A stretch of 26,119 bases of DNA from a virus: the IMG/VR virus record IMGVR_UViG_3300032287_001012, positions 1 to 26,119 of that record; one strand, written 5' to 3'. The translations under genes and the position numbers were made by a program. Each line of letters begins with the position of its first letter. Position 1 is the stretch's first letter. The notes under the pieces were generated by a model, which had not been told where the DNA came from, searched no databases, and was given only the letters and a program-made list of their open reading frames with translations. Shown piece after piece: positions 6,205 through 14,799 of this stretch.

Positions 6205-6975
6205 ATGCGTAAACTGCTACTATTATTATTAATTCCATTTGCCGCCCTGGCGAATCCCATTGACGATCAATGTCCCCAACACGTACTGCGTGGTGCACCT
6301 GTGAGTTCTATCACAGCAAACACGCAGTATCTTTGTAAACAAAACTACGCTATACACTATAGATACGATACCAAGACAGCAGAGTATGTTGTGCAACACG
6401 TTACACTACAATCTATTTCCGGACCTGCCAAAAGAAAAGACGATTTTAGACCAGACCCATCTATACCTAAACAACACCAATCACAGTTATCGGATTATGC
6501 TGGATTTCCTTTTGATAGGGGACATCTAAGCCCGGGCGCAGACAACACCATTAATGATGACATCATGAGCGAAAGCTTCTTCTTGTCAAACATGGTTCCG
6601 CAAGTTCCCAATCACAATCGTGGTATTTGGAAACAATTAGAAACAGCAGTGCGCAATTGGGTATCAGAAGGCAAAGATATCTATGTGGTATCCGGAACTG
6701 TGTATGCTCCGGGCTATCAAACCATAGGTGCTAATCGTGTAGGTATCCCTACGCACATGTGGAAAGTCGTTGTTGATCGTAAGAATTCTAAATCAATTGC
6801 TTTCTTATTTCCTAATGCTCCATTACCTGTTGCAGACTTGCCTAAGTATGCTACCAGCGTGGGCTCGATCGAACAGTACACCGGCATTAATTTCATGCCA
6901 CAACTAACAGCACAACAAAAGAAAGTCTTAGAAGACACTCCTCCAAATCTAGCTGAATGGTCTAGTTTAAAATAA
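6205..6975 (+). CDS. Exported DNA/RNA non-specific endonuclease (NUC1 / EndoG type)
   Basis: 256 aa. Residues 1-17 form a clear signal peptide (MRKLLLLLLIPFAALA, cut near ALA|NP), so the product goes to the periplasm or outside. Residues 104-110 DRGHLSP are the family signature with the catalytic His107; SNMVPQ (128-133) and NHNRGIW with Asn138 and QLE with Glu146 match the metal-binding helix known from Serratia nuclease. The enzyme hydrolyses DNA and RNA using a single Mg2+. A variant late-type promoter (ACTAAATA, 6166-6173) lies upstream and a weak AAGG site precedes the ATG. Phages usually keep nucleases cytoplasmic, so export is unusual; it may clear nucleic acid outside the cell or act on competing phage DNA during entry (inference). 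Confidence 0.85.
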   Translation: MRKLLLLLLIPFAALANPIDDQCPQHVLRGAPVSSITANTQYLCKQNYAIHYRYDTKTAEYVVQHVTLQSISGPAKRKDDFRPDPSIPKQHQSQLSDYAGFPFDRGHLSPGADNTINDDIMSESFFLSNMVPQVPNHNRGIWKQLETAVRNWVSEGKDIYVVSGTVYAPGYQTIGANRVGIPTHMWKVVVDRKNSKSIAFLFPNAPLPVADLPKYATSVGSIEQYTGINFMPQLTAQQKKVLEDTPPNLAEWSSLK

Positions 6976-9223: not shown

Positions 9224-9883
9224 ATGAAAGCACTCAGCATGAAGATAGCGTTATTTGTGCATCAGCCTAAATGTTCGATAGAATCGGGCAATGGCATCCT
9301 TGAAGCTCTCCAACCGTATCACACATTTAAGATTTTCACCAAGTGGCGCTTAGACGCTGATTTTTTTGACGATGTTGATTGTGTAGCGTTTCCTGGAGGG
9401 ATTGGAGACAGTGAAAGCTGGCATTACCTAACACAACATCATACTGATCGTATTAAACAATTTGTACACAACGGCGGCAAATATCTAGGTATCTGTATGG
9501 GAGCTTATTGGGCCGATAAACATTACTTTGATCTACTGGTTGATGTTCAAGCAGATCAATACATTACTAGACCCAATGCAGATACTAGACGCCCTCATGC
9601 CAAAGCACAAAAAGTCTTATGGAAAGGACAGGAGGAGAAGATGTTTTTCTATGACGGCTGTGCTTTTCATGGTTCAGGTATAGACATATCAGATATCTAT
9701 GCACGATATCCCAATGGCGATCCTATGGCAATTATACAAGGTAGACTAGGTCTTATTGGCTGTCATCCAGAAAGCACATCCAGCTGGTACAGTGAATACT
9801 ATAGTTGGATGAAACCACATTATCACGGTAGAAAACACCACGAGCTATTATTAGATTTTGTTAACGATCTATCTAAACGATAA
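9224..9883 (+). CDS. Class I glutamine-amidotransferase-like protein (BPL_N type)
   Basis: 219 aa. The order of motifs fits the BPL_N/GATase-like fold: FPGG (56-59), GGKYLGICMGAYWA with nucleophile Cys91 in the sharp-turn elbow, and GCHPES with His181 and Glu183 completing a Cys-His-Glu triad. BPL_N proteins resemble the N-terminal domain of eukaryotic biotin-protein ligase; their bacterial and phage reaction is not well settled. No synthetase or acceptor domain follows, so the substrate is unknown. Start is uncertain: ATG 9224 and ATG 9239 (MKIALFVHQ) are both possible and neither has a strong Shine-Dalgarno. Followed nine bases later by the desaturase. Confidence 0.75.
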   Translation: MKALSMKIALFVHQPKCSIESGNGILEALQPYHTFKIFTKWRLDADFFDDVDCVAFPGGIGDSESWHYLTQHHTDRIKQFVHNGGKYLGICMGAYWADKHYFDLLVDVQADQYITRPNADTRRPHAKAQKVLWKGQEEKMFFYDGCAFHGSGIDISDIYARYPNGDPMAIIQGRLGLIGCHPESTSSWYSEYYSWMKPHYHGRKHHELLLDFVNDLSKR

Positions 9884-9886
9884 ATA
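9879..9886 (+). promoter_or_regulatory. Late-type promoter GATAAATA, leaderless geometry
   Basis: Five bases (TCTTC) separate the octamer from the desaturase ATG at 9892; no ribosome site. Confidence 0.6.
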
Positions 9887-9891
9887 TCTTC

Positions 9892-10599
9892 ATGATAGAA
9901 ATTATAGCAACGTTAGTGATGACGCACATCACAATAGTGTGTGTGACACTATACCTACACAGAAATCAAGCTCACAGAGGCATCGAATTTCATCCTGTCC
10001 TAAGTCATTTTATGCGACTATGGTTGTGGCTGACGACTGGCATGACTACCAAGCAATGGGTAGCCATACATCGCAAACATCATCAGAACACAGACGTAGA
10101 AGGTGATCCACATAGCCCGCACGTATTTGGCATTTGGCAACTGGTGTTCGGCGGAGTCAAGTATTATAATCGTGCTGGCAGCGATGCTCATATGGTTATG
10201 AAATACGGAGCCGGTACTCCCAAAGACTGGATTGAACGCAAACTTTATACACCCCACCATCGCCTTGGCATTCTTTTAATGCTGATCATAGATCTATTGT
10301 TCTTTGGGCCATGGGGATTTGTAGTGTGGGGTGTTCAGATGATATGGATACCATTCTGGGCCGCTGGTTTTATCAACGGCATTGGACACTGGTGGGGTTA
10401 TCGTAACGGCGAGACAAAAGATCATTCACACAATGTAATGCCTTGGGGTATTTTAATCGGTGGTGAAGAACTACACAACAATCATCACTTGGATCCTGCC
10501 AATCCTAAACTGAGCCGTCGTTGGTTTGAATTTGATATCGGCTGGATGTGGTTTAAATTGTTTAGCTATATAGGCTTAGCAAAACTTAGAAACGCATAA
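9892..10599 (+). CDS. Fatty-acid (acyl-CoA/acyl-lipid) desaturase
   Basis: 235 aa membrane protein. The three histidine boxes of the membrane di-iron desaturases are present: HRNQAH (23-28), HRKHH (60-64) and HNNHH (195-199), with hydrophobic segments at about 3-21, 40-50, 118-135 and 138-160. The family inserts a cis double bond into acyl chains using O2 and an electron donor. It is near the short end of the delta-9 type range but all boxes are intact. The ATG is exactly six bases after the last A of GATAAATA (9879-9886) with no ribosome site. It is an auxiliary metabolic gene; a role in remodelling host membrane fluidity during infection is inference. Confidence 0.88.
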   Translation: MIEIIATLVMTHITIVCVTLYLHRNQAHRGIEFHPVLSHFMRLWLWLTTGMTTKQWVAIHRKHHQNTDVEGDPHSPHVFGIWQLVFGGVKYYNRAGSDAHMVMKYGAGTPKDWIERKLYTPHHRLGILLMLIIDLLFFGPWGFVVWGVQMIWIPFWAAGFINGIGHWWGYRNGETKDHSHNVMPWGILIGGEELHNNHHLDPANPKLSRRWFEFDIGWMWFKLFSYIGLAKLRNA

Positions 10600-10602
10600 A
10601 GA

Positions 10603-10626
10603 AAAAGCAGCCCGGGGGCTGCTTTT
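10603..10626. terminator. Bidirectional intrinsic terminator
   Basis: AAAAGCAGCC, loop CGGG, GGCTGCTTTT forms a 10-bp stem with A-run on one side and T-run on the other. It sits between the convergent desaturase (plus) and 89-aa gene (minus) and should stop transcription from both sides. Confidence 0.9.
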
Positions 10627-10667
10627 CTTTTTCTCTAATGTATAATATATCGCTATGCGACGAATAA

Positions 10668-10937
10668 TTATTTCTTAGCTGCACCTTTATTTACAAAATC
10701 ATACATTTTCTCAGCAGCTTCAAGAACTTTCTCAAGTCCTGGAACTTCTGGCATACCTACAGTAGTTACGATCTGGCCAGTTTTATCGTCACGCTTTGCT
10801 GACATTTCCCAACCATTAAATTTATAACCGTATTCTGCTTGTACATGATCTTTAGCGAGTGCTAGGATATCTGCACGGATTTCATATCCGTTTTTGTTGA
10901 ACTTTACTTCTGGTAGTTTTGGTGTTTCGAATGACAT
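10668..10937 (-). CDS. Small unknown phage protein (89 aa)
   Basis: Reads MSFETPKLPEVKFNKNGYEI at the start, then a helical, charged body and a C-terminal helix around PEVPGLEKVLEAAEKMYDFV ending in a basic tail GAAKK. No signal peptide or membrane segment. A strong AAGGAG site lies eight bases before the ATG, and a sigma70-type promoter (minus strand, 10997-11025) sits upstream, so it is likely well expressed, perhaps early. General look is that of small soluble proteins conserved in marine T4-like phages, but I cannot name it. Last gene of the minus-strand island, ended by the bidirectional terminator. Confidence 0.75.
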   Translation of the reverse strand: MSFETPKLPEVKFNKNGYEIRADILALAKDHVQAEYGYKFNGWEMSAKRDDKTGQIVTTVGMPEVPGLEKVLEAAEKMYDFVNKGAAKK

Positions 10938-10996
10938 AATAATCTCCTTGTGTGTATGTCTGTTATTAACAACTACTTCTTTTTCGCTGTTAACTT

Positions 10997-11025
10997 ATTA
11001 TATATGCCTAGAGACAAAAAAGCAA
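10997..11025 (-). promoter_or_regulatory. Sigma70-type promoter for the 89-aa gene
   Basis: On the minus strand: TTGCTT (11025-11020), 17-base spacer, TATAAT (11002-10997). Perfect -10, good spacing. It lies in the gap between the hydrolase and the 89-aa gene, reading toward the latter. Confidence 0.6.
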
Positions 11026-11026
11026 C

Positions 11027-11602
11027 TTATTTCTTGAACTTTTTTATTCGTTCTTGAATCAATGTTACCACTTTATCGCTGAGCACTACTTCATAGTGGT
11101 TGCAATCTACTTCCACTAACTCCATATCCTCGTGATGCTTCTGACTAGCAACAGTAACCACACCGTCGTTGTGTGCTAACATAAACGGGCTTTGCCCTTT
11201 TACAGTAACAATATTAGTCCAAGGATGTTGTATTTTAATTCTATCAGCTTGTTTAAAAGCCCAGCTGTTTGGGCCAATGTCACGCATCAATCTGCTGAAT
11301 GGTAAAAAGTATTTGGCATAATCTGCTACTTCAGCACCGCCATAGGGTGTGCTTAGAGTAACAGCACCAACTACTTGATCGGGCATGGTATTGGCAACGT
11401 GTAGGCTATAGATACCTCCTAGACTATGCGCTATAAATGCAATGTCCTTTACAGACTTTAGGTGTTCAATAATCTCTGCTAGATTGTTTTCAAACCCATT
11501 TCGGCTATCATAGTTGATATCAATGCCTTCACCTAATTTGCTTCTAATGTAATTGAAGCTTTCGCTAGTAGCACTAGCACCATGAATATAAACTAGAGTC
11601 AT
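11027..11602 (-). CDS. Alpha/beta hydrolase (serine esterase/lipase-like)
   Basis: 191 aa from ATG at 11602 (a TTG two codons... one codon upstream is less likely because an ATG follows it). VYIHGAS provides the oxyanion HG; IAHSLGG holds the nucleophile Ser60 in a G/A-x-S-x-G elbow; HNDGVV gives Asp146 and CNHYEV His169, completing the triad. It is shorter than typical alpha/beta hydrolases, so the cap domain is minimal. LSTPYGG is common in lipase-like members. Substrate unknown. It begins just after the cupin stop (three bases between), so the two are one transcript; GGAAG upstream is a plausible ribosome site. Confidence 0.8.
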   Translation of the reverse strand: MTLVYIHGASATSESFNYIRSKLGEGIDINYDSRNGFENNLAEIIEHLKSVKDIAFIAHSLGGIYSLHVANTMPDQVVGAVTLSTPYGGAEVADYAKYFLPFSRLMRDIGPNSWAFKQADRIKIQHPWTNIVTVKGQSPFMLAHNDGVVTVASQKHHEDMELVEVDCNHYEVVLSDKVVTLIQERIKKFKK

Positions 11603-11605
11603 CAA

Positions 11606-12022
11606 TTACTTCCAAGGAGCAGGTGCTGGTATTTCACAAGGTCCTTCAGCAGGCTCTGTTCCGTAGTCAGCTGGCATAATAACTTCTAGGTATTCCATAT
11701 CTGGACTGTAGTCGTATAGGTAATGTACAATGCCAGGACGTTGCTGTACGCAATCACCTGCTTCGACTAGATGTATTTTGTCTTCATACATAAACTTGGC
11801 CCAACCCTTTAACATGTAAACGATTTGGAACTCAGCTACGTGGATATGCCAACCTGTGCCACCTGATCCTTCTGGGGGTAAATTAGCTTTTGTGATGTGT
11901 GCTAGAACACGACCGTTAGTAGCGTCTGCTACTCCTAGATCTTTGTATAGGAAAAAGTCGCGAAGTCCGCCACCTTTAAACTCTACTTCTGATCCCTTGA
12001 CGTGTGAAAACTTCGTGGTCAT
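11606..12022 (-). CDS. Cupin-domain protein
   Basis: 138 aa single cupin barrel. Motif 1 is seen as GWHIHVAEFQIVYMLKGWAKF and motif 2 as GDCVQQRPGIVHYLYDY; the histidines in WHIH and IVHY and the Glu/Gln between could bind a metal, though the canonical G(X)5HXH pattern is only partly kept. Such small cupins act as isomerases, dioxygenases or sugar/regulatory binders; the reaction cannot be told. Strong AGAAGGAG site precedes the ATG and a late-like AGTAAATA octamer lies upstream on the same strand. Co-transcribed with the hydrolase, suggesting one small pathway. Confidence 0.8.
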   Translation of the reverse strand: MTTKFSHVKGSEVEFKGGGLRDFFLYKDLGVADATNGRVLAHITKANLPPEGSGGTGWHIHVAEFQIVYMLKGWAKFMYEDKIHLVEAGDCVQQRPGIVHYLYDYSPDMEYLEVIMPADYGTEPAEGPCEIPAPAPWK

Positions 12023-12497: not shown

Positions 12498-12526
12498 TTG
12501 ATTAAATAGAACAAACAGTGTATAAT
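12498..12526 (+). promoter_or_regulatory. Sigma70-type promoter upstream of the NTase operon
   Basis: TTGATT (12498-12503), 17-base spacer, TATAAT (12521-12526). Perfect -10 and near-perfect -35. With the late-type octamer at 12545 this gives the operon a host-polymerase promoter and a late promoter in tandem. Confidence 0.7.
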
Positions 12527-12544
12527 ATTAAATCATACATAGAG

Positions 12545-12552
12545 GGTAAATA
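12545..12552 (+). promoter_or_regulatory. Late-type promoter variant (GGTAAATA)
   Basis: TAAATA core 18 bases before the ATG at 12571; leader contains GGGAAGG as ribosome site. Confidence 0.45.
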
Positions 12553-12570: not shown

Positions 12571-12858
12571 ATGAAAATTAGAACAAGATCAATTTTGCAG
12601 GAACTTAACGAACTGGCAGAAGTGCGTAACAAAGACGCTCTTTTTGAAAGCCGTGCCGTTAATATTATCAATTCTGCAATTAATCTTTTGGAAAGTATTC
12701 ACAAGCATTATACCCCAGAAGATGCAGATGAGCTTGAACGTAGATTTATCAATTCTATCAAAGGGCAAGACACTGCTAAATTTACTCGTGGTATACGAAA
12801 AATAGTAGAATCAAGAAAGCACAATCAAAAGCTGTTGGAATCCAAAGAAGATGAGTAA
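12571..12858 (+). CDS. Small helical phage protein, first gene of NTase operon (95 aa)
   Basis: Reads MKIRTRSILQELNELAEVRN, then a helical, charged body with INSAINLLESIHKHYTPEDA and ELERRFINSIKG. No membrane segment. The N-terminus contains LQE|L, compatible with the T4 prohead-protease rule, so it might be a capsid-internal protein; alternatively a partner of the two enzymes that follow. GGGAAGG ribosome site. It overlaps the next gene by eight bases (ATGAGTAA), which implies translational coupling. Function unknown. Confidence 0.75.
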   Translation: MKIRTRSILQELNELAEVRNKDALFESRAVNIINSAINLLESIHKHYTPEDADELERRFINSIKGQDTAKFTRGIRKIVESRKHNQKLLESKEDE

Positions 12859-13663
12859 TACATTATTTGAGGGCGGAAACGTATTCAAAGGCCCAGACAA
12901 ACAACCACTAACACAACGTATCAGAACCAGCGAGGTACCTGCTACTATTGCTTGGATTGAAAAAGTCACAGGCTTAGACTTTACTAAAGAACTAGACCCG
13001 CACGATAAGAAACCTGTGAAATGGTTAGGCACAACAGGACGTAAGGAAGATCCAGATGGCACATTTGAACTAAACAGTTCTGGCGACCTTGATCTAAGTG
13101 TTGATGCCAACGAAGTAGATAAGAAACAATTTGCTGATAATCTAATCCAACAGTTTGGTAAAGAGTCAGTTAAATTAAGTGGTGACAGCGTACACTTAAA
13201 AACTCCTATCAACGGGGATGAGAAATTTGGATTTGTTCAAGCCGACTTTATGTTTTCGGCTAATCCTAAATTTCAACAAGGAAGTATGCTAGGAGGAACT
13301 GGAGAATATCGCGGTGAGCATAGACACATTGTACTCAGCAGCATTGCTCGTGCCCGAGGATTAAAATATTCACCCAAGTACGGTCTGCTACATGCAGATA
13401 CTAATGAACCACTCGAACACGGTGATGACTGGAATGTTATTGCTAAGAAACTGCTAGGGCAAACAGCCACAACCAAAGACATTCGTTCAGTTGATAGCAT
13501 TTTAAATTATATTGAAAAACTACCAAACTACGAAGAATTAATTGCAGGTGCAAGAGAAACATTAGGCAAGCAGGGTATTAAGTTACCAGAAGCAATTACC
13601 TTTGAAAGTGCTCAGACTGGAACACCGCAATGGTTCCGAAAGATGATGAGTAGAATTAGATGA
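12851..13663 (+). CDS. Nucleotidyltransferase-fold protein (270 aa)
   Basis: Residues 59-85 carry LGTTGR followed by SSGDLDLSVD, the G-S/T helix turn plus DxD (Asp79, Asp81) of the DNA polymerase beta-like nucleotidyltransferase fold; VQADFMF supplies the third acidic residue (Asp132) on the next strand. Such enzymes move an NMP to a protein, nucleic acid or small molecule using two metals. The N-terminus FEGGNVFKG...LTQRI is, as I recall, shared by homologues in marine T4-like phages. HRHIVLSSIARARGLKYSP follows as a helix and the C-terminus is basic (KMMSRIR). It overlaps the next gene by ATGA, so the ligase-like protein is its likely partner. Substrate unknown. Confidence 0.75.
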   Translation: MSNTLFEGGNVFKGPDKQPLTQRIRTSEVPATIAWIEKVTGLDFTKELDPHDKKPVKWLGTTGRKEDPDGTFELNSSGDLDLSVDANEVDKKQFADNLIQQFGKESVKLSGDSVHLKTPINGDEKFGFVQADFMFSANPKFQQGSMLGGTGEYRGEHRHIVLSSIARARGLKYSPKYGLLHADTNEPLEHGDDWNVIAKKLLGQTATTKDIRSVDSILNYIEKLPNYEELIAGARETLGKQGIKLPEAITFESAQTGTPQWFRKMMSRIR

Positions 13664-14760
13664 GAGCATTTGAGTTTTTAACTGAAGCAGAAGCACCTGC
13701 TCCTAAGAAGGTTGGACGTGAGTTTAATCACTTAGAGGATCTAGTGTTTACAGAACCCAACGGCGGTAAAAAGGCAGTTGAATTGTTAAAAGGTATCGCA
13801 CAAGATGCCAAGGATGTTAGTATCAAATGGGACGGCAATCCCACAGTCTATTGGGGACGTGAAGATAACGGACAGTTCCGTATGGTTGGTAAGAATAACT
13901 GGGGACGTGATGAAGGCAAAAGCTCAAGCCCAGAAGAACTTAAACAGTTTATCCTAAGTCGTGGTAAGGGCGAAGACTGGCGTGAAAAGTTTGCGTCGGA
14001 TATGGCCAGCCTGTGGCCTATCTTTGAAAAGGCAACTCCTGCAGATTTTCGTGGTTATGTCTACGGTGATATTTTATTCCATCCAGGCAAGCCCTATGAA
14101 GGTGCAGATGGTCGTATAAGTTTTACTCCTAATCAAACAACGTATGCCGTTCGTAGCACTAGTGATGTTGGACGTCGATTAGTCAAAGCTAAAATAGCGG
14201 TAGCTGTACACAAACATTTAGATTACTTCGGTGACAAGGGCGGTGAACCTATTAGCGATGTTGGCCAATTCAACGCTACTCCAGATCTAGTGGTATTTGG
14301 GCAGACCTATGTCAGCCATCAACCTGCAGTGAATGCAGACAATCTAGCAGCTATTGAAAAGATAGTTAATACTAAATCTGGATCAATTGATCAATTCCTT
14401 GCTCCGGTTGCAGGTATGGGATACCTACAAGATACTATCTATACATTTGTTAATAATCAAAGTAAAGCCAAACAACTAGATAATTTAAACTCAAAAGCGT
14501 TCTTTGAATGGCTAGGATCAAACCCTGCCAAACTTAAAAAGATCAGCGAACACAGCCAAAAACACCCAGGAGTAATGGATGTTATATTCCAACTGGTCAC
14601 AGAACTGATGAAAGCCAAGGACGAAGTCATCCGAGAGCTTGATGCTGCCAAGGGCGATATAGAACAGCACACGGGCGGCAAACCCGGCGGCGAGGGCTAT
14701 GTCTATAAAGATGCTAAACTAGTACCACGTGATCGCTGGACTCCTTTTAGAGCCGATTAA
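13660..14760 (+). CDS. KxDG ligase-like protein (DUF6267-like), candidate packaged enzyme
   Basis: 366 aa. SIKWDGNPTVYWG (54-66) has the KxDG motif I of covalent nucleotidyltransferases (DNA/RNA ligases, capping enzymes) with Lys56; FRGYVYGDILF (130-140) resembles motif III; ISFTPNQTTYAV and VKAKIAVAVH (175-184) could be the IV/V region. This arrangement matches my memory of DUF6267 proteins in marine myoviruses. The N-terminus MRAFEFLTEAEAPAP resembles the T4 capsid-targeting sequence (MKTYQEFIAEA in IPII/IPIII) and LTE|A fits the gp21 cleavage rule, so mature protein would begin at Ala10 and be packaged with DNA. Residues 320-345 form a charged helix; the C-terminus is GGKPGGEGYVYKDAKLVPRD. 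Ligase activity is inference. Confidence 0.7.
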   Translation: MRAFEFLTEAEAPAPKKVGREFNHLEDLVFTEPNGGKKAVELLKGIAQDAKDVSIKWDGNPTVYWGREDNGQFRMVGKNNWGRDEGKSSSPEELKQFILSRGKGEDWREKFASDMASLWPIFEKATPADFRGYVYGDILFHPGKPYEGADGRISFTPNQTTYAVRSTSDVGRRLVKAKIAVAVHKHLDYFGDKGGEPISDVGQFNATPDLVVFGQTYVSHQPAVNADNLAAIEKIVNTKSGSIDQFLAPVAGMGYLQDTIYTFVNNQSKAKQLDNLNSKAFFEWLGSNPAKLKKISEHSQKHPGVMDVIFQLVTELMKAKDEVIRELDAAKGDIEQHTGGKPGGEGYVYKDAKLVPRDRWTPFRAD

Positions 14761-14791: not shown

Positions 14792-14799
14792 TATAAATA
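14792..14799 (+). promoter_or_regulatory. Consensus late promoter TATAAATA
   Basis: Perfect match to the T4 late octamer. Expected start near 14805; the leader carries a 7-bp hairpin and AAGGAG before the ATG at 14847. Confidence 0.8.

Follow-up and report, generated by a model that had tools for sequence, protein, structure and literature searches.

What use could a phage have for a nucleotidyltransferase and a ligase-like protein that are encoded in one overlapping operon? The question is raised by a 26-kb fragment of an uncultured T4-like phage record, which was analyzed over its whole length of 26,119 nt (the window). An initial annotation had read the two proteins as coupled NMP-transfer chemistries and had suggested a dedicated system for the modification or repair of nucleic acids or proteins.

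Layout, conservation and promoters of the operon

The operon is located on the plus strand and consists of SM (12571-12858, 95 aa), NT (12851-13663, 270 aa) and LIG (13660-14760, 366 aa). Coordinates and reading frames confirmed that the three genes overlap at both junctions, by 8 nt between SM and NT and by 4 nt between NT and LIG. SM matches phrog_11854 of the PHROGs database ('virion structural protein', E = 5e-18), its homologues in the phages 121Q, PBECO4 and Atu_ph07 carry the same annotation, and an L-x-E-L site is present near its N-terminus. From its sequence, SM is assigned to a phage virion-protein family. Rfam and tRNA scans of the whole 26,119 nt gave no match. Elsewhere in the window, positions 6205-6975 encode a DNA/RNA non-specific endonuclease (PF01223, E = 4.5e-49) with a signal-peptide-like N-terminus, in a phage, and positions 9224-12022 are a possible host-derived island with genes for a BPL_N-type amidotransferase, a fatty acid desaturase, an alpha/beta hydrolase and a cupin, the latter two on the minus strand.

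IMG/VR scans provided 315 LIG and 571 NT candidate relatives, the best 80 of each were retrieved, and more divergent relatives were added with an NT profile. Gene order turned out to be conserved among the retrieved relatives: the trio is present in at least ~150 IMG/VR loci, and nearly all loci that were retrieved via one gene and are long enough also hold both of its partners, with the order unchanged. SM overlaps NT in every retrieved locus with both genes. The start of LIG overlaps the end of NT by 4 nt in 89 retrieved loci and in 38 more with a longest ORF that extends upstream, one or two genes are inserted between them in 24, and LIG still adjoins NT relatives at 44-50 % identity. NT also occurs without LIG, namely in Lak phages and on the 70.8-kb contig G004, where SM and NT are present, and the Pfam family of LIG, DUF6267, mostly occurs without NT. 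A search of genome contigs with NT gave no match, so there is no sign of NT as a chromosomal gene; a viral-contig scan with a jumbo-phage NT as query gave no match either. On both large trio-bearing phage contigs tmRNA genes are predicted (loci L231 6573-7023 and L251 6645-7091).

Tandem host-type and late-type promoters had been proposed for the operon, and both were found upstream of SM and are enriched over shuffled sequences. The sigma70-like promoter (TTGATT-N17-TATAAT, 12498-12526, plus strand) combines TTGATT at 12498-12503 with TATAAT at 12521-12526 across a 17-nt spacer, and the late-type box TAAATA (12547-12552, plus strand) lies 18 nt before the SM ATG. Of 100 distinct regions upstream of SM in relatives, 98 have TAAATA at -40 to -12 (8.6 in shuffles), whereas TTGAY-N16-20-TAnnnT precedes SM in 32 of 100 distinct relatives (2.3 in shuffles), indicating that of the two promoters it is the late-type one that is conserved. 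An exact copy of the T4 late box, TATAAATA at 14792-14799, belongs to the gene after LIG.

Motifs, folds and relatives of the two enzymes

The polymerase-beta-like DxD site recognized in the second gene held up in both sequence and structure comparison. NT contains the motifs G60-x-x-G63-x-K65, S77-G78-D79-L80-D81 and D132, and SGD[LIV]D and QxD[FL]M, with D79/D81 and D132, are kept in 125/125 relatives; S-G-D-x-D and Q-x-D are invariant as far as the Lak phages. The best PDB matches of an AlphaFold2 model (pLDDT 84) in Foldseek were DNA polymerase beta, then lambda, mu and TdT (E from 3e-3, probability up to 1.0, TM ~0.4). Motifs and model identify NT as a member of the Pol-beta nucleotidyltransferase superfamily with predicted activity. 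Searches with NT in Pfam, PHROGs and NCBIfam gave nothing above noise, and no nucleotidyltransferase was matched when the PDB was searched by sequence profile with NT, LIG, A4 and A5.

A known system of this kind is RlaP (PF10127), a Pol-beta nucleotidyltransferase that occurs together with RNA ligases of the Rnl type (review: PMC7824862). Here as there, a Pol-beta nucleotidyltransferase gene of large phages is functionally linked to a ligase, with nucleotide restoration predicted before sealing. In contrast to RlaP, however, neither the NT members in general nor the NT genes of Atu_ph07, Phosso and the contigs G001 and G002 match PF10127, and NT was rejected as an RlaP; Atu_ph07 has a separate RlaP elsewhere. 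LIG differs as a DUF6267 protein without a match to Pfam RNA_ligase (PF09414) at E <= 1, and both proteins carry putative head-packaging leaders.

The KxDG lysine motif described for the third gene was also borne out: it corresponds to K56-W57-D58-G59, and K[WY]DG with K56 is present in 122/122 LIG relatives as well as in divergent cyanophage, Vibrio and Stenotrophomonas members. The protein had been presented without a family, but LIG falls in Pfam DUF6267 (PF19782, E = 3.6e-18, 66.5 bits vs a cut-off of 27), which is found in more than 400 phage records. Further motifs are GD137IL, PN158..Y162, E345GYV and K353LVxR, and GD(I/L)L, EG[YF] and K[LF]VxR follow in this order in 119-122 of the 122 relatives. 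An alignment of 18 members with 21-70 % identity to LIG has H24, E26, D27, K56, D58, G59, D137, N158, Y162, E345, G346, K353 and R357 invariant. Because the motifs of NT and LIG are kept in all of these relatives, with conservation down to 21-25 % identity, we do not regard them as chance; the changed motif residues named beforehand as contrary evidence were seen in none of these 125 NT and 122 LIG relatives.

Motifs I, IV and V of LIG are canonical, and motif III, GD(I/L)L, carries D in place of the E found in most ligases. The P-N-x-x-x-Y after motif III resembles, as judged by eye, FEFVAPTNRIVLAY of T4 RnlA. With the T4 system of RnlA and PseT, LIG shares the motifs KxDG, EGYV and K, and in both P-(T)-N...Y comes after motif III; it differs in motif III itself, has no significant sequence match, and no kinase/phosphatase partner was found for it. 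Structure prediction and fold search, suggested as a check of both proteins, were clear for NT and less so for LIG (pLDDT 82), whose top 13 PDB matches are all ligase-type and each weak (E 0.03-0.75, probability <= 0.51). DNA ligase IV (Lig4 AMP-Lys complex) ranks first; the other top matches include fungal tRNA ligase, T4 Rnl1 and Naegleria Rnl. Compared with viral models, LIG found its own family first, including DUF6267-cytidylyltransferase fusions, and then RNA ligases among other proteins. A local profile match at motifs IV-V links LIG to RNA-ligase-like proteins of jumbo phages (E = 7.6e-4, vs 0.021 for an unrelated control); other settings align the motif I region, with 1 of 200 column shuffles nearly equalling the score. 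DUF6267 showed no significant hhalign match to T4 Rnl1, Rnl2 or gp30. Taken together, LIG is quite likely a member of the ligase superfamily and a putative Lys56 nucleotidyltransferase, with weaker support for its modelled fold than for that of NT.

DUF6267 proteins of cyanophages (phrog_455), to whose family LIG belongs, have no assigned function in any member; unlike LIG, they adjoin PD-(D/E)XK-like and NMNAT-like genes or form a fusion with the NMNAT-like one, and the members examined are leaderless. Since in many phages DUF6267 adjoins an NMNAT-like cytidylyltransferase or is fused with it, LIG could use or serve NAD, either as a NAD-dependent ligase whose NMN is recycled or as a nucleotidyl-modifying enzyme in NAD metabolism. 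Consistent with this, phrog_455 spans DUF6267 and a cytidylyltransferase domain, fused proteins occur in S-PM2 and uncultured phages, NMNAT-like proteins occur in virions, and G001 and G002 encode an NMNAT-like protein with an L-x-E leader. We nevertheless consider a role in NAD chemistry quite improbable: in the window lineage the neighbour of LIG is NT and not an NMNAT-like gene, and no NAD-binding domain Ia was recognised in LIG. In S-PRM1 (gp065-gp067, locus L260 3036-6282), DUF6267 is flanked by a PD-(D/E)XK-like gene on one side and by an NMNAT-like cytidylyltransferase on the other.

Among isolated phages, NT was found in jumbo phages only, by direct search in Atu_ph07 and Phosso and with a jumbo query in Lak phages. 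Atu_ph07 and Phosso have an SM homologue near NT and, overlapping NT, a KxDG protein that is not DUF6267; in Atu_ph07 it matches RNA_ligase PF09414 weakly (E = 0.002). The jumbo NT and ligase homologues are annotated as hypothetical, not as structural. In PA5oct, a relative of the jumbo KxDG protein adjoins a PD-(D/E)XK-like protein (phrog_13937), and in S-PRM1 the phrog_13937 gene precedes DUF6267, the PD-(D/E)XK assignment being made by eye from sequence. As the two KxDG families share the same partners, they seem to occupy equivalent positions, and the fact that NT is paired in unrelated jumbo phages with a KxDG protein of another family favours a shared nucleic-acid repair task. Thus, of the purpose initially suggested, the pairing of two folds under late-type control and nucleic-acid repair gained support, whereas nothing points to protein modification.

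N-terminal leaders and predicted head packaging

The most informative feature of the operon, missed by the initial annotation, is a pair of N-terminal leaders. LIG begins with MRAFEFLTEAEAP, and its putative capsid-targeting leader MRAFEFLTE (13660-13686, plus strand), disordered in the predicted model, would be cut before A10. The N-terminus of T4 IpII and IpIII, MKTYQEFIAE followed by A, is of the same kind, and T4 gp23 is cut at SFLTE/AEIGG (the slash marks the cut). The putative head-targeting leader of NT, MSNTLFE (12851-12871, plus strand), is expected to be cut before G8-G9. It has the form M-x-x-x-L-F-E/GG, and [LIV]-x-E/G[GA] is found in 122 of 123 relatives of the lineage; distant NT homologues without a leader, those of jumbo and Lak phages, start at the cut point as MGG or MSG. 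On the relatives' contigs, M[RK]x1-3[EQD]hhxE occurs at a near-start Met in 12 of 485 protein families, vs 1 at an internal Met. This comparison replaced tests (G001/G002; Shine-Dalgarno filter) in which the choice of start codon and translational coupling acted as confounders.

T4 IpI-IpIII and Alt, which have a capsid targeting sequence and are cleaved by gp21, are a close known parallel, with a leader of ~10 N-terminal residues, M[K/R]-x-x-x-E-F-[I/L]-x-E, and a gp21-type protease is encoded by the related contig G001. The related 280-kb contig encodes T4-like gp20, gp21 (E = 1e-19) and gp23 (E = 3e-42); no gp21-type protease or gp23 was found within the 26-kb fragment itself. Unlike in T4, the leaders are here on a nucleotidyltransferase and a ligase-like enzyme, with a predicted head location. 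For IpIII the first 10 residues suffice for packaging (PMC9026906). The internal proteins of T4 enter the host together with the phage genome, and IPI, probably also IPIII, acts against host defences (PMC9391042).

A published virion proteome is available for the cyanophage S-CREM2 (mass spectrometry, Table 3 of PMC10665884). A slightly widened leader motif occurs in 3 of its 219 ORFs, the SAM hydrolase gp6, gp13 and the cytidylyltransferase gp154; the kinase gp14, with a GTG start, is also leader-bearing, and all four are listed there as virion proteins. Leader ORFs account for 3 of 52 detected and 0 of 167 undetected proteins (p = 0.013, an optimistic value given that the motif was widened after gp154 had been seen). 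The original form has no match among the 219 ORFs of S-CREM2 and matches the NMNAT of S-SCSM1 (MKSFLQFLKE followed by A), which is a virion protein (PMC9602691). The leaderless DUF6267 protein gp87 of S-CREM2 does not appear in the virion table, which fits the leader rule but is no proof of it. A common FLxE leader is not mentioned in the consulted passages of the S-CREM2 paper.

Several further proteins have related features. S-CREM2 gp12 (Cas9-like) has a similar FMAE/A stretch (loci L267 and L269, with gp6, gp12, gp13, gp14 and gp154). Another Pol-beta-type nucleotidyltransferase of S-CREM2, gp156 (locus L269 33013-33726, PF01909, E = 3e-4), is listed in the virion table and encoded near the cytidylyltransferase; G001 encodes a homologue (locus L234). 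A gene between NT and LIG in locus L214 (6142-7263) combines an MRAFEFLNE leader with a DxD/third-Asp pattern like that of a second nucleotidyltransferase. In several proteins that otherwise differ (L082 6810-8054, L023 3131-3856, L214 6142-7263 and LIG of L174), the leader is followed by a cassette of ~30 residues, W-S-x-K-Y-K-x-S-I-N-C-S-x-P-K-G-F-S-Q-x-A-H-C-x-G-x-K-K.

The leaders suggest virion packaging, and LIG, less certainly NT, is predicted to be packaged into the head. Alternatively, the leaders could be coincidental or a mere scaffold tag, and the late enzymes would act in the producing cell. NT and LIG themselves are indeed known from genes and not from virions, none of their window-lineage relatives having been seen so far in any virion, and none of the cyanophage DUF6267 proteins examined has a leader. 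We regard action in the producing cell as unlikely, since the leader is kept in nearly all members of the window lineage and the same leader is found on unrelated proteins and on virion enzymes proven by mass spectrometry.

Proposed role and substrate of the pair

With the operon, the motifs, the Pol-beta fold of NT, the late-type box, the leaders and the conserved linkage computed, we infer packaging, activity, substrate and repair role and tentatively propose, at slightly less than an even chance, a late, packaged end-repair pair that is injected. SM, as a small head-associated protein, NT and LIG would be made late in infection, and the short leaders would direct LIG, as well as probably NT, to the prohead, where a T4-type prohead protease would cut after L-x-E. 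At the next infection NT and LIG would be injected with the DNA. NT could then add back one or a few missing nucleotides to a 3' end; LIG could activate the 5' phosphate via a Lys56-NMP intermediate and seal the break. In this way, damage by first-response host nucleases would be undone. Such damage would most likely consist of anticodon breaks in tRNA, or else of nicks or gaps in the DNA that enters the cell.

Two observations make us lean towards tRNA. Contig G001 encodes a gp30-like DNA ligase, but no member of Rnl1, Rnl2, PseT or the RNA_ligase family could be recognised on it, which leans towards an RNA role, and phage contig G002 carries 18 tRNA genes in one cluster (locus L249 11075-15282). 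A Pol X-like gap filler, either packaged or made late, might instead work with a ligase to mend nicks, gaps and restriction cuts in the phage genome, as in African swine fever virus, which has a repair polymerase and a ligase. The nearest solved folds of NT are DNA polymerases beta, lambda and mu, the top fold match of LIG is DNA ligase IV, and PD-(D/E)XK-like partners adjoin DUF6267 in cyanophages, all in line with DNA repair. Yet G001 already has a DNA ligase, the other top fold matches of LIG are RNA and tRNA ligases, and the jumbo KxDG counterpart matches RNA_ligase, so that we think a DNA substrate improbable, though less so than the NAD reading. As to tRNA end repair, the nucleotide lost to an anticodon nuclease such as RloC has to be restored before sealing (PMC7824862, PMC2610378). 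No kinase/phosphatase for preparing cleaved tRNA ends was found. Two other readings were set aside: a toxin-antitoxin pair, because no such family was matched and the late-type promoter and the leaders point elsewhere, and protein AMPylation, which nothing supports.

What is new is a Pol-beta nucleotidyltransferase/ligase pair from new families with predicted head-targeting leaders. It is possible, if somewhat less probable than the end-repair pair as such, that some T4-like phages inject a pre-made repair kit of NT and a DUF6267 ligase, ready before phage expression, and that DUF6267 is a new ligase family. The rule M[K/R]...[FL][LI]xE/, which fits two published cyanophage virion proteomes, would predict head-carried proteins of T4-like phages. 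If the proposal is true, the few anti-defence proteins known to be injected would be joined by a repair enzyme pair, and a function would be found for DUF6267, which is very common in phages and whose role is unknown.
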